Below, one piece after another: positions 42,377-49,016 of a stretch of 64,000 nt of DNA. The position numbers were made by a program, and so were the translations under genes. The notes below the pieces were generated by a model, which was not told the origin of the DNA, made no database searches, and was given only the letters and a program-made list of their open reading frames with translations. The DNA is from an uncultured Bacteroidia bacterium (GTDB lineage: Bacteria > Bacteroidota > Bacteroidia > Bacteroidales > UBA932), in contig CADANY010000004.1 of NCBI GenBank assembly GCA_902789395.1, forward strand, positions 1 through 64,000, written 5' to 3'. Position 1 is the first letter of the stretch, and each line of letters begins with the position of its first letter.

Positions 42377-42931
42377 ATGAAAAAGTATCAACTCCTTCTT
42401 TTTCTCGTCCCGATTCTGATCCTGGTGAGCGGGTGTGATTTCTTCCGGTCGGTGGCCGGAAGGCCGACCTCTGCCGTGCTGGATAAGAAGCGGGAGGAGG
42501 TTCTTGCCCGGCAGCAGTTCCTTCGGGAGCAGGCTGTACGGGATTCCCTTGAGAAGATTGCTGCGAAGCGGAGAGCCGATTCCCTGGCAGCGCTTGACTC
42601 CCTTGACGCGCGGTTGCTCGATTCATTGAGCCGGAAGAAAGGATCCTTCCTGCGCCCTGCCCGTCTCGGCGGTCTCGGGAAGACTGTCCTTGAAAAGAAA
42701 TACTATGTTGTCGTAGGTTCGTTCAAGAGTGAGGAAAATGCGCAGAAAAAGGTCTCAAAATGCGGGCAGGATGGATTTCCGGCCGTCGTCATTCCTTTCC
42801 GAAACGGAATGAATGCCGTCGGCGTCTGCCCGTCAGACCGGATATCCGAGTCTCTCCGGGCGATGGACGAACTGAAACAGAAGGGCATCTGTCCGAAAGA
42901 AGGATGGATCCTCGTTAATGATGCGTTATGA
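42377..42931 (+). CDS. SPOR-domain lipoprotein
   Basis: 184-residue lipoprotein (lipobox LVSGC, C20). A charged helical segment rich in Arg/Glu/Asp/Leu (about 35-78), likely coiled coil, is followed by a SPOR domain (about 107-180) with YYVVVGSFKSEENAQ and ending ILVNDAL. SPOR domains bind glycan strands stripped of stem peptides, as found at division sites. Its stop overlaps the next ATG (ATGA), coupling it to the M28/TonB fusion. First gene of a five-gene unit with leuS. Confidence 0.87.
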   Translation: MKKYQLLLFLVPILILVSGCDFFRSVAGRPTSAVLDKKREEVLARQQFLREQAVRDSLEKIAAKRRADSLAALDSLDARLLDSLSRKKGSFLRPARLGGLGKTVLEKKYYVVVGSFKSEENAQKKVSKCGQDGFPAVVIPFRNGMNAVGVCPSDRISESLRAMDELKQKGICPKEGWILVNDAL

Positions 42932-44289
42932 TGAAGAAGTTCCTTGTTTGCCTGTCGGCTTTCACCCTGGCGGTTTCCGCCCTGGCCCAGTTCCGGACGC
43001 CGGATTATTCGGATCTGTATGATTCCGAAACCGTCCGCGCCCTGAAGGAGCACGTGGCCTATATCGCCTCCGCCCAGATGGAGGGGCGTCTCGCCGGTTC
43101 GGAGGGAGAAGCCATGACGGCCGAATATATCGGTAAGACCCTGCAATCCTATGGACTTGAGCTCATTACCCCGGTTTCAGGGGAGTCATTCGGTCTCGTC
43201 GGCGAGGCCGGAGATACCCTGTATTCCCGTAATGTGGCCGCTTTTATCCAGGGGACGGACGGCGCCCTGAATGACCGGTATATCCTCATCGGCGCCCGCA
43301 TGGACAACCTCGGAATGGATACCTATACCGTCGACGGAGAGCCCCGGCGGCGGATCTATTATGGCGCCAATGGCAATGCGTCCGGTCTTGCCCTGTTCCT
43401 GGAATTGTCCCGGATGCTGAAAACGAACCGTCTGAATCTGAGACGCTCAGTCCTTCTGGTGGCTTTCGGAGCGTCTTCGCGGACCCTCGCCGGTTCCTGG
43501 TATTTCCTGAACCGATCCTTCTCCGATACGGACCGCATCGATGCCATGGTCAATCTCGATATGCTCGGAACCCCGAGTCACGGGTTTTACGCCTATACGA
43601 GCTCGAATGCCGATATGAACATGATCCTCTCCGCCCTGCAGGGAGAACTCCTTCCGGTGCTTCCCGAACTGACGACAACAGAGCCCTATCCTTCCGATCA
43701 CAGGGCCTTTTATGACCGGGAAATCCCTTCTGTCATGTTTACGACCGGACGCTATCCCGAGCATGGCACGGAAAAAGATACCCCTTCCATTCTGGATTAT
43801 TCCGGGATGGAAAAGGAATTGGAATATCTTTATGCCGCTTCGGTTGCGCTGACCGGTGCGCCCAGGCCGTCCTTCAGTCCTGACGCTGCGGCACGTTCGT
43901 CTGTCCCGGAAGATGCGGTCGCTTTCCATGATTGCGATTACAAACCGTCCTTCCTCGGCAGCCAGGACCCTTCCACCTTCATGCAAAAGTGGGTCTATGC
44001 CTATCTGAAATACCCGAAAGAGGCCCTCGAAGCGGGGAATCAAGGCCGTGTCGTCGTTGATTTCATCATTGACGAAGAGGGCAATGTGAAAGATGTCAAG
44101 GTCGCCCGCGGTGCCAGTCCCGCTTTGGACGAGGAAGCCGTCCGGGTCATCAGTGCCTCTCCGAAATGGAAGCCGGGCCGCGTCCGGGGTAAGAAGGTCC
44201 GTACGGCCATGACCCTGACCGTCGAATTCCGCCTGGAGAAAAAGAATAAGGGGGGCGGATTCGGCATCAATGGAAAAAGAATCAAATAA
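42928..44289 (+). CDS. Degenerate M28 peptidase-like protein fused to a TonB C-terminal domain
   Basis: 453-residue exported protein (signal peptide 1-20). Residues about 35-310 have the M28 aminopeptidase fold, with the order of motifs preserved. Against M28 zinc ligands and catalytic base, however, the positions read R124 (GARMDNLG, His expected), G149 (GANGNASG, Asp expected) and S183-S184 ([11 protein letters not shown], Glu-Glu expected); only D211 and H258 remain. It is therefore probably inactive as a peptidase. Residues about 352-436 form a TonB C-terminal domain ([20 protein letters not shown]), followed by a basic Gly-rich tail. Its role may be peptide or peptidoglycan binding. Coupled to the SPOR gene. 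Confidence 0.82.
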
Positions 44290-44297
44290 AGTTACCT

Positions 44298-47057
44298 ATG
44301 GATTATAATTTCATCGAAATCGAAAAGAAATGGCAGGCTTACTGGGCGCAGCACAAGACATTCAAGGCTGAGCCGGACTCCTCCAAACCGAAATACTATG
44401 TACTCGATATGTTCCCGTACCCCTCCGGGGCGGGTCTCCACGTCGGCCATCCGCTGGGATATATTGCGAGTGACATTTTCTCCCGCTACAAGAGGCTGAA
44501 GGGCTTCAATGTCCTGCACCCGATGGGGTACGACGCCTTCGGCCTTCCGGCAGAGCAATACGCCATCCAGACCGGTCAGCATCCGGAAAAGACGACCCAT
44601 CAGAATGTCGCCCGCTATCGCCAGCAGCTCGACCGGATCGGTTTTTCCTATGATTGGGACCGGGAATTCCGTACCTGCGATCCGGAGTATTATAAGTGGA
44701 CCCAGTGGGCTTTCCTGCAGATGTTCGGCTCCTGGTATGACAATTCCCTGCAGAAGGCGCGTCCGATTGAAGACTTGGTGGCGGCATTCGAAAAGGGTGG
44801 ATCGGCAGCCGTTGATGCGGCGAACAATGACGCTCCGGTCTTTACGGCCGAAGAGTGGAAGGCCTTTTCAGAGAAAGAGAAATCCGATGTCCTGATGCAC
44901 TACCGGATTGCCTATCAGGGCGAGTCGACGGTCAACTGGTGCCCGGCACTCGGGACCGTTCTGGCCAATGACGAGGTCAAGGACGGGTATTCCGAGCGCG
45001 GCGGCCATCCGGTTTTCCAGAAAAAGATGGTCCAGTGGCAGCTTCGCGTTTCCGCCTATGCGGGGCGTCTGCTGGAAGGACTCGACCGGATAGACTGGAC
45101 GGATTCCCTGAAGGAGATGCAGAAAAACTGGATCGGAAAGTCCCAGGGTGCAGAAATGGTCTTCAAGGTCCGTAATGGGGAGCAGGAGTATGACATGACG
45201 ATCTTTACGACCCGTGCCGATACGGTCTATGGAGTCACCTTCATGGTCCTGGCGCCGGAGAGCGAGTGGGTCCCTAAACTGACCTCACCGGAGCAAAAAG
45301 AGGCGGTTGATGCCTATCTGGACCAGGTGAAGAAGAAAACCGAGCGCGAGCGGATTGCCGGAAAGGCCGTTACGGGCGTTTTTTCCGGATCCTATGCCGT
45401 GAATCCCCTGACGGGAGAGTCCGTCCCTGTCTGGATCGCCGAATATGTCCTGGCCGGTTATGGAACGGGTGCCATCATGGCGGTTCCGGCCCATGACAGC
45501 CGCGACTATGCTTTCGCCAGGAAGTTCAATCTTCCGATCATCCCCCTGATCGAAGGAGCCGACGTCAGCGAGGAAAGCTATGATGCGAAGGAGGGAATCA
45601 TGACGAACAGCGGTTTCCTCAACGGGATGGATGTCAAAGAGGCCATTCCGGCTGCCATCGATTATGTCGAGGCCCATGGAATCGGCCGTCGGAAAATCAA
45701 TTACCGGATCCGTGACGCGATCTTCTCCCGCCAGCGCTACTGGGGCGAACCGTTCCCGATCTACTACAAAGACGGGATTGCGACCCCTGTACCCGAGGAC
45801 AAACTTCCCCTTACCCTTCCGGAAATCGATGAATACAAACCCACCGAAACCGGAGAACCGCCGTTGGCCCGGGCGAAGGACTGGACCTATGAGGGATATC
45901 CGCTCGAAAAGAGCACCATGCCGGGATTCGCCGGCTCCAGCGCCTATTATCTGAGGTATATGGACCCCCGCAACGACAAGGCCCTTGTCAGCCGCGAAGC
46001 GGATGAGTACTGGCGGAGCGTCGACCTTTATATCGGCGGGACCGAGCATGCGACCGGTCACCTGATCTACTCCCGTTTCTGGAACAAGTTCCTCTATGAT
46101 CTCGGGTATGTCTGCGAGGATGAGCCGTTCCGGAAACTGATCAACCAGGGAATGATCCAGGGACGTTCGAACTTTGTCTACCGGATCGTCAATACCAACA
46201 CCTTCGTTTCTGCGGGCCTGAAAGACCGGTATGAAACGACCGAGATCCATGTCGATATCAACATCGTCCGCAACGACCGGCTCGATATCGAAGCTTTCAA
46301 GGCCTGGAGACCGGAATTCGCAACGGCGGAGTTCATTCTCGAAAATGGTGAGTATATCTGTGGATGGGCCGTCGAAAAGATGTCCAAGTCCATGTACAAC
46401 GTGGTCAATCCGGATCAGGTCTGCGACAACTACGGGGCGGACACCCTGCGTCTGTATGAGATGTTCCTCGGCCCTGTCGAACAGTCCAAACCGTGGGATA
46501 CCAAGGGTATAGACGGCGTCAACCGCTTCCTGCGTAAGGTCTGGCGCATGTTCTGGGACCGGGATACCTTCCTTGTCAATGACGAAGCGCCGACCCCTGA
46601 AGAGTTGAAATCCCTCCATAAATTGATCGCGAAAGAACAGGAAGATATCGAGCATTTCTCGTACAACACGACGGTAAGTGCCTTTATGATTGCCGTCAGT
46701 GAGTTGCAGGGCTGCTCCAAACGGGCGATTTTGGAACCGCTCCTGATCCTTCTTTCTCCCTTTGCCCCCCATATCGCGGAGGAACTCTGGCAGCAGCTCG
46801 GCCATGCCGAATCGATTACCTATGCTTCTTTCCCGGAATACAACCCGGCTTATACGGCCGAAGACAATGTGAAATACCCGGTATCCTTCAATGGAAAGAC
46901 CCGTTTCATGGTCGATCTTCCCAAGAGCATGGGCCCCGCAGAGGTTGAGGCGGCTGTCCGATCCCATGAAATGACGGCGAAGTATGTCGGCGACATGTCA
47001 ATCGCCAAGGTAATTGTCGTCCCGGGCCGTATCGTCAATGTCGTACTGAAAAAATAA
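44298..47057 (+). CDS. leuS: Leucyl-tRNA synthetase
   Basis: 919-residue class Ia synthetase. The HIGH signature is HVGH at 48-51 and the KMSKS loop is exact at 694-698. The CP1 editing domain (about 220-430) includes [21 protein letters not shown], with the Thr-rich and Asp residues that hydrolyse mischarged tRNA. The anticodon-binding and C-terminal domains are complete. It follows the M28/TonB gene by 8 bases and precedes the YitT genes by 4, so it is in one unit with envelope genes. Confidence 0.97.
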
Positions 47058-47061
47058 GGAC

Positions 47062-48000
47062 ATGAAGGAGAAGACAAGGAAAATCCTGTTTCTTATCTGG
47101 GAGTATCTGGTCATTTCGATCGGATGTGCCATCTTTGTAATGGGCTGGACCTCGTTCATGCTTCCGAACGGGATCATCGACGGAGGACTGACAGGCGTCT
47201 GTGCCGTTCTTTCCATGGCAACCGGCATCCCGGTCGACGTCTATTATATCAGCCTTCAGGCGGTCCTGATCATTCTCGCCGTCTGGATCATGGGAACGAG
47301 TTTCGGAGCGAAGACCCTCTATGCAATCCTTCTGACGACCGTCCTTTTCCGGGTATTGGGGAGCGAGTCCTTCCATTTCCTGCAGGCCGTTCCGGGAGAA
47401 TTCCTGTACGTTGACCAGCGGATCCTGATCGCGATGATCGGCGGTCTGATGGAGGCGATCGGCATCGGATTGATTTTCCAGCGGGGCGGCAGCACGGGCG
47501 GAACCGATATTTTCGTACTGCTGGTCAATAAGTTCTGGCCGATCTCGCCGGGGCGGGTCTATATCTATATCGACCTTGTCGTCATCGCGTCCATCCTGCT
47601 GATCCCGGGTCATACGTTCTCGGATGTTATCCTCGGATATGTGACCATGTTCACCTTCTCATTCGGTCTCGATTTCTTCCTGATGGGCCGGAAGTCATCG
47701 GTTCAGCTGCTGATTTTCTCGTCCAGACATGCCGAAATCGCTGATTATATCAATCAGCGGATGGACCGGGGTGTCACCGTTCTGAAAGCTGTCGGCTGGT
47801 ATTCCAAGGAGGAGAAAGACGTCCTCCTCGTACTCGTGCGCAAGTTCCAGCTCGGCGAGGTTACCAAGGCCGTCAAGGCGATCGATCCGAAAGCTTTCGT
47901 CTCCGTCGTGACGGCCAATGACGTCTACGGAGAGGGATTTGATGAAATCAAGGCAGGAATTGAGAGTGCCAGAAAGAAAAAGATTGAAACGAAATCATAA
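47062..48000 (+). CDS. YitT-family membrane protein (first of two)
   Basis: 312-residue protein with five or six membrane helices in the first 210 residues and a soluble C-terminal DUF2179-type domain (about 215-300, with DYINQRMDRGVTVLKAVGWYS and VSVVTANDVYGEGFD). The repeat-like NGIIDGGLTGV and GGSTGGTDIF motifs are the family signature. YitT proteins are of unknown function; the C-terminal domain resembles small-ligand-binding modules. A closely related gene follows after 5 bases. Confidence 0.85.
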   Translation: MKEKTRKILFLIWEYLVISIGCAIFVMGWTSFMLPNGIIDGGLTGVCAVLSMATGIPVDVYYISLQAVLIILAVWIMGTSFGAKTLYAILLTTVLFRVLGSESFHFLQAVPGEFLYVDQRILIAMIGGLMEAIGIGLIFQRGGSTGGTDIFVLLVNKFWPISPGRVYIYIDLVVIASILLIPGHTFSDVILGYVTMFTFSFGLDFFLMGRKSSVQLLIFSSRHAEIADYINQRMDRGVTVLKAVGWYSKEEKDVLLVLVRKFQLGEVTKAVKAIDPKAFVSVVTANDVYGEGFDEIKAGIESARKKKIETKS

Positions 48001-48005
48001 TATAT

Positions 48006-49016
48006 ATGCCAAAGCATAAGAAAAGCTCGTGGACCCTTGTCAAAGAATGGCTGCTGGTCTCTCTCGGAATCCTGATTTATGTAGCCGGCTGGTCCATCTT
48101 CCTCATTCCGAATAACCTTGTCGGCGGGGGAGTCTCCGGTATCAGTTCCATCATCCAGTACGCAACGGCGGGCAAGATCCAGATGGGATATACTTATTTT
48201 GTACTCAATGCAATCCTGCTGGTTGCCGCCGTTGTCATCATCGGGATGGGATTCGGTGCCAAAACCATCTTCGCCATCGTCCTCGCCTCCATCGGACTCC
48301 GCGTCCTGCCGGAACTCATCCCGTCTGAAATCATTCAGGCGCTGGCCCTCCAAAACGGGAAGCTGATGTCGACGATCATGGGCGGCATCATGGCCGGCAT
48401 CGGCATCGGCATGTCGATTTCCAACGGAGGCAGTACGGGCGGAACGGATATCATCGCCATTATCTATACCCGTTACCGCAACGTTTCCCCGGGAAAAGTG
48501 ATCCTGTTTCTGGATTTTATCATTATCCTCTCCTCTCTCTTCGTCCCCTCGGTGGTCCAGAATTACGATCCCGAGACAGGTAAGGTCCTCCTCGGACCCG
48601 ACGGAGAGCCGCTCACGCACCTGATGCCCTGGGCGGAAAAGGTGACGACAGTCGTGTACGGCCTGATTCTCGTAACGGTCAATAGCCAGGTTATCGATAT
48701 GTACCTTTCCGGATCCCAGCAGAGCGTGCAGCTTTTCATCCTCTCCAAGCATTCCGACAAGATCGCTGAAATGATCACCCATGAGCTCCATCGGGGCGTG
48801 ACCGTGCTGGACGGAAAAGGATGGTACAGCCAGAAGAAAACGGAGGTCCTGATGGTACTGACCCGGAAGACCGATCTCAACCTTCTCCTTCGTCATATCA
48901 AGTCTATTGACAAGGAGGCCTTCCTGTCCGTTTCCTCCGTCTCCGGGGTCTATGGAAAGGGATTCGACCGGATCAAGGGTAATGTTCCGGCGGAAAATAA
49001 CAGCGAAAAAGCATAA
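48006..49016 (+). CDS. YitT-family membrane protein (second of two)
   Basis: 336-residue relative of the preceding protein with the same plan and signatures (NNLVGGGVSGISS, GGSTGGTDIIAI, RGVTVLDGKGWYSQ, VSSVSGVYGKGFD). It carries an extra loop of about 25 residues near 180-205 (DPETGKVLLGPDGEP). The two genes look like an old tandem duplication and may form a heterodimer. It is the last gene of the SPOR-M28/TonB-leuS-yitT-yitT unit, ended by a strong terminator. Confidence 0.85.
   Translation: MPKHKKSSWTLVKEWLLVSLGILIYVAGWSIFLIPNNLVGGGVSGISSIIQYATAGKIQMGYTYFVLNAILLVAAVVIIGMGFGAKTIFAIVLASIGLRVLPELIPSEIIQALALQNGKLMSTIMGGIMAGIGIGMSISNGGSTGGTDIIAIIYTRYRNVSPGKVILFLDFIIILSSLFVPSVVQNYDPETGKVLLGPDGEPLTHLMPWAEKVTTVVYGLILVTVNSQVIDMYLSGSQQSVQLFILSKHSDKIAEMITHELHRGVTVLDGKGWYSQKKTEVLMVLTRKTDLNLLLRHIKSIDKEAFLSVSSVSGVYGKGFDRIKGNVPAENNSEKA

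Follow-up and report, generated by a model that had tools for sequence, protein, structure and literature searches.

What does a peptidase domain do when most of its catalytic residues have been replaced and a TonB C-terminal domain (TonB_C) follows in the same chain? A gene in the window (the 64,000 nucleotides of DNA that we analyzed, from an uncultured Bacteroidia bacterium) raises this question. The original prediction was that its product binds rather than cuts. We propose that the protein is probably a soluble pseudopeptidase of the periplasm, which would bind a ligand and dock through TonB_C, and that catalysis was lost repeatedly from a probably active ancestor. The gene and its parts are:

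42928..44289, + strand: M28-TonB_C fusion gene (453 amino acids, ATG start)
42928..42987, + strand: putative signal peptide, residues 1–20
43024..43860, + strand: M28 fold, residues 33–311
44002..44235, + strand: TonB_C domain, residues 359–436

The gene is an open frame with a full translation, Pfam domains, and orthologues in 16 of the 26 genera of its family. Both of its Pfam matches are far above the curated cut-offs: Peptidase_M28 (PF04389) at residues 102–296 (E = 3.9e-23; 82.6 bits versus a cut-off of 21.3) and TonB_C (E = 1.7e-19; also NCBIfam tonB_Cterm, 49.8 bits). An AlphaFold2 model of the protein, from a 35-row alignment, has a mean pLDDT of 89.4 and a pTM of 0.68, so each domain is well modelled and their mutual placement is less certain. 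The M28 part of the model matches the Bacillus subtilis aminopeptidase BSAP (6HC7; VIA-align Z = 31.6, rmsd 2.4 over 252 residues) and transferrin receptor 1 (3kas; Z = 29.6). By homology, then, the protein belongs to peptidase family M28, and the motif order of that family and a TonB_C domain do occur in one chain, as had been read from the sequence (Pfam, phmmer alignment, and superposition of the model all agree). The linker between the two domains is short and variable. The N terminus looks, by eye, like a cleavable type I signal peptide that ends at ALA|Q and has no lipobox, and the model has a hydrophobic helix at residues 3–21. This signal peptide would export the protein.

M28 enzymes require His, Asp, Glu (the base), Glu, Asp, and His, and the roles of the ligands are established for the family of the Aeromonas/Vibrio aminopeptidase (AAP). 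We mapped these residues by a phmmer alignment to AAP (1AMP and variants), and we counted their states in about 146 loci from the genus, some of which are the same locus fetched twice:

43297..43299, + strand: R124, at the position of metal ligand H97 (R in 145/146 genus loci)
43372..43374, + strand: G149, at the position of the bridging ligand D117, the second Asp of GADD (G in 144/146)
43474..43479, + strand: S183-S184, at the positions of the base E151 and the ligand E152 (S183 in 145/146; 184 variable)
43558..43560, + strand: D211, ligand D179 kept (142/146)
43699..43701, + strand: H258, ligand H256 kept (129/146)

Four of the six catalytic residues are replaced, just as originally proposed (Arg for His, Gly for Asp, and Ser-Ser for Glu-Glu). 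Among the five metal ligands of an active M28 metallopeptidase (H, D, E, D, H), D211 and H258 alone are present, and the general base is a serine. The other three ligands and the base are missing both from the window protein and from the genus as a whole. (Lap, a homologue of AAP, has the five zinc-binding residues H, D, E, D, H; PMC10709122.) Because the substitutions are fixed across the genus, they are not sequencing noise; only position 184 varies freely. We also considered that the ligands might have moved to shifted positions. This is ruled out: the alignment has no gaps in the motifs, and the model superposes on M28 structures over residues 33–311.

The loss of a single residue does not prove inactivity, since the E147A mutant of AaaA keeps 46% of its activity (PMC3426542) and the PDB entry for E151H of AAP (2anp) carries the word "functional" in its title. 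Much stronger evidence comes from the absence of the base and three ligands at once. We therefore expect that the domain, which folds normally in the model, would not be able to assemble the two-zinc centre, although one weakly bound metal may persist at D211 and H258. R124 might conceivably take the place of zinc through a salt bridge with D211 or D257.

The fusion is present in 233 of 300 genomes from the family; the genomes in our comparison are mostly metagenome-assembled. The close relatives come from the guts of ruminants and other animals, in records under the names Candidatus Cryptobacteroides and uncultured Bacteroidales. Outside the family, we found no full-length match in 393 genomes from the order (at E = 1e-50) or in 395 genomes from the phylum (at E = 1e-75). 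In the genomes sampled and at these thresholds, the fused family is restricted to one family of Bacteroidales. A search of a literature library found no paper on M28 with "TonB C-terminal" in Bacteroidetes, nor on fused TonB_C in Bacteroidetes, and a review of pseudopeptidases (PMC11266112) does not mention M28.

In other genera, fused and mostly syntenic orthologues have the full six-residue set, HDEEDH (L069, L070, L083, L084, L229, and others). If position 149 is taken as the equivalent of Asp117, the set is kept by most of the sampled members of g29 and g36, by g38 and g43, and by one member of g41. This is one of the findings that the original prediction had named as refuting it. It rules out an inherently non-catalytic fusion and limits the original prediction: with three of the five ligands and the base gone across the genus, binding rather than cutting is the best reading for this protein and its genus, but it does not hold as a general rule for the architecture. 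It also implies an order of events. Since fused orthologues keep all six residues, the fusion probably arose in a likely active enzyme, before the repeated losses of catalysis. The last His is the least diagnostic of the six positions: in M28 relatives from the order that lack the fusion, the first five residues are kept but the sixth is often Thr or Ser.

To count the losses we used a tree of 106 rows with the catalytic columns left out, again with position 149 as the Asp117 equivalent. All of the fused rows group together (support 100), and intact rows are among the early branches. By parsimony, the full catalytic set changes state 8 times. If loss is irreversible, there are 14 losses on the resolved tree, 13 with forks below 80 collapsed, and 8 with forks below 95 collapsed. 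A single origin of inactivity is rejected: forcing all of the inactive rows into one clade gives a p-AU of 5e-34 (AU test). Full catalytic sets were thus lost at least 8 times, and up to 14 times, in one syntenic gene. That there were multiple losses is not in doubt; the exact count is uncertain because this is a quick tree with two long end branches and because some states come from single metagenome-assembled genomes. Where just one residue was lost, it was the base Glu in seven of eight rows (HDSEDH in L059, L219, and L080; HDQEDH in L231 and L226; HDNEDH in L238; and HDGEDH in L228). The sole other single-loss row is HNEEDH (L079). So loss would usually have begun at the base, whatever selected for it.

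(The change from His to Arg at the H97 position also arose in g41, in L221–L224, where the bridging Asp and the base were lost as well. At the H256 position, His has changed to Tyr in several lineages.)

Could the inactive gene simply be under relaxed selection and heading for loss, persisting beside leuS in a likely operon? Catalytic residues were lost repeatedly, with later erosion of further ligands, in many lineages, and two genomes from the genus (G287 and G331) have no full-length match, although the gene could just have been left out of a draft assembly. But the frames are intact in nearly all loci, and no part of the M28 domain is more conserved in the inactive genus than the former active-site loops, whose mean entropy is 0.51 bits versus 1.16 for the whole domain; just 1 of 284 circular shifts of the active-site mask had entropy as low. 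Furthermore, the median pairwise dN/dS of the M28 domain is 0.11 in the inactive genus (153 pairs), close to the values for pairs with the active set (0.07; 4 pairs) and for other inactive pairs (0.07; 26 pairs), and for TonB_C the values are 0.09, 0.06, and 0.05, respectively. (These values are rough, because the pairs are not independent in their history and many synonymous distances are large.) The fixed changes, the conserved loops, and the dN/dS of about 0.11 indicate that the fusion gene is under purifying selection and is maintained rather than decaying. Relaxed selection is disfavoured, and we consider it the least probable of the explanations. Together, the tree, the loss counts, and dN/dS show an ancestor with the full set, later loss, and continued purifying selection, as expected for a pseudoenzyme whose inactivity is itself predicted from sequence.

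In TonB_C, W355, Y362-P363, G373, W414, and F434 are invariant in all 35 aligned rows, whatever their catalytic state. The genome encodes four TonB_C proteins: the fusion, a small protein (L287), an M56-like protein (L286), and the real TonB (L284), which has a membrane anchor and a Pro-rich stretch. L284 is 47% identical to the fusion protein over the TonB_C region, and the C-terminal domains of both are homologous to that of E. coli TonB, with the YP, WxPG, and terminal strand motifs. Unlike the TonB energy transducer, the fusion protein has a signal peptide, the M28 domain, and the short linker in place of an N-terminal anchor and a periplasmic Pro-rich spacer. Hence it cannot be an ordinary energised TonB or transmit proton-motive force, and coupling to ExbB/ExbD is not expected. 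The C-terminal domain of TonB binds TonB boxes (PMC11658791), and passive docking through TonB_C is the simplest inference.

The gene has two conserved neighbours:

42377..42931, + strand: SPOR-domain lipoprotein gene, directly upstream, with an overlap of 4 bases into the fusion gene (Pfam E = 1.8e-8)
44298..47057, + strand: leucyl-tRNA synthetase gene (leuS), a downstream neighbour conserved by synteny

SPOR domains bind denuded glycan strands. The lipoprotein has a lipobox, by eye, that ends in LVSGC, and its SPOR domain is at residues 107–171. The fusion and its SPOR neighbour, whose conservation the original prediction proposed to check, are both conserved: the SPOR gene is upstream in 136 of 137 loci from the genus, mostly within a few bases of the start of the fusion gene (we recognised a lipobox in 113). 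The order SPOR, (gcvT), fusion, leuS is kept in most loci. In other genera, gcvT usually separates the SPOR and fusion genes, and downstream of the fusion there are usually leuS and two YitT-type genes. The SPOR neighbour fits an envelope setting without proving a joint function with the fusion. The adjacency may reflect operon layout alone, because leuS is a neighbour too, as is gcvT in other genera, and both are unrelated to the fusion gene; the link between leuS and the fusion gene is probably co-transcription only.

In this genus gcvT is absent from the junction of the SPOR and fusion genes (at 42931), and the genome's sole gcvT match is on another contig (C6:117703-118785; 45% identity). 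Two tandem genes for YitT-type membrane proteins lie downstream of leuS, at 47062-49016 of the window, in an order that is conserved in most other genera. In three genomes, M28 and leucyl-tRNA synthetase appeared to be joined in one frame, but a TGA separates the genes.

We propose that, once exported, the protein would hold a ligand uncut in its conserved cleft, most likely a peptide or a protein N terminus. TonB_C would dock it passively on an envelope partner, either an outer-membrane protein with a TonB box or the cell wall, perhaps near the co-encoded SPOR lipoprotein. The gene would have begun as a probably active M28-TonB_C enzyme, and the binding and docking role would have been kept while catalysis was repeatedly lost. 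A more specific proposal is that peptidase activity was abandoned at least 8 times because the M28 cleft and TonB_C together make a periplasmic adaptor, TonB-like but soluble and non-energised, that senses peptides and docks on TonB-dependent transporters. This we regard as speculative and on balance doubtful; if true, it would add a new type to the TonB-domain proteins and provide a natural, replicated experiment in how pseudoenzymes evolve.

The protein might instead still be an enzyme, with one metal on D211 and H258 or with a new non-metal site formed from R124 and S183, such as that of a transferase or cyclase. Across the genus, R124, N148-G149-N150, and S183 hardly vary, as expected of a new catalytic site; glutaminyl cyclases, one-zinc relatives with the M28 fold, are among the best fold matches; and GPAA1, another relative with that fold, was modelled with an altered zinc site (PMC7522609). 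But glutaminyl cyclases retain a set of Asp, Glu, and His ligands, while this protein has two single ligands left, H258 itself varies, and so does position 184, a zinc ligand in the active enzymes. Continued catalysis seems unlikely to us. We give still less credence to the inactive forms being inhibitors or decoys that shield substrates from active M28 enzymes in the same cell or regulate those enzymes. The genome does encode at least one intact M28 paralogue (L279, with GSHLDS, VDDGQGT, TGEEYG, and GSDH), but it lacks TonB_C and looks like a member of a different M28 subfamily.

We also noticed that another M28 paralogue in this genome, the unfused L281/L298 (C21:13435-14091; 339 amino acids), has lost catalytic residues: it has Ser at the bridging Asp (GADSN) and KG for Glu-Glu, and it lacks the His of the SDH motif. 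In other genera, Lys often occupies the position of the base in related short M28 proteins (AFDAKE).

As a predicted M28-fold pseudopeptidase with a TonB_C domain, the protein would be of a known kind. With the M28 aminopeptidases AAP (1AMP), SGAP (1CP7), and BSAP (6HC7) it has in common the fold, the motif order, D211, H258, and the second-shell D126; it differs from them in the replacement of three of the five metal ligands and the base and in the appended TonB_C. Transferrin receptor 1 is a non-peptidase homologue of M28, and its ectodomain uses the fold for binding, as we predict here, but it is eukaryotic, much larger, and membrane anchored, and its domain partners are unrelated. What is new is the fused family, its limit to one Bacteroidales family in our samples, the fixed substitutions in a conserved pocket, and the multiple losses of catalytic residues within a single gene. 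In most known pseudopeptidases the loss is old and complete. The gene studied here, an orthologue with the same fusion and mostly at a single locus, shows every stage in parallel lineages, from HDEEDH through forms that lack the base alone to others with nearly all six residues replaced, so the order and the cause of catalytic loss are directly testable. The results also point to a class of soluble TonB_C proteins in Bacteroidales, for which annotation as "peptidase" or as "energy transducer TonB" is probably wrong.

The same genome has a second peptidase-type protein that ends in TonB_C, L286 (C19:3880-4206). It is encoded elsewhere in the genome and, unlike the fusion protein, is an integral membrane protein that is M56/BlaR1-like rather than M28.
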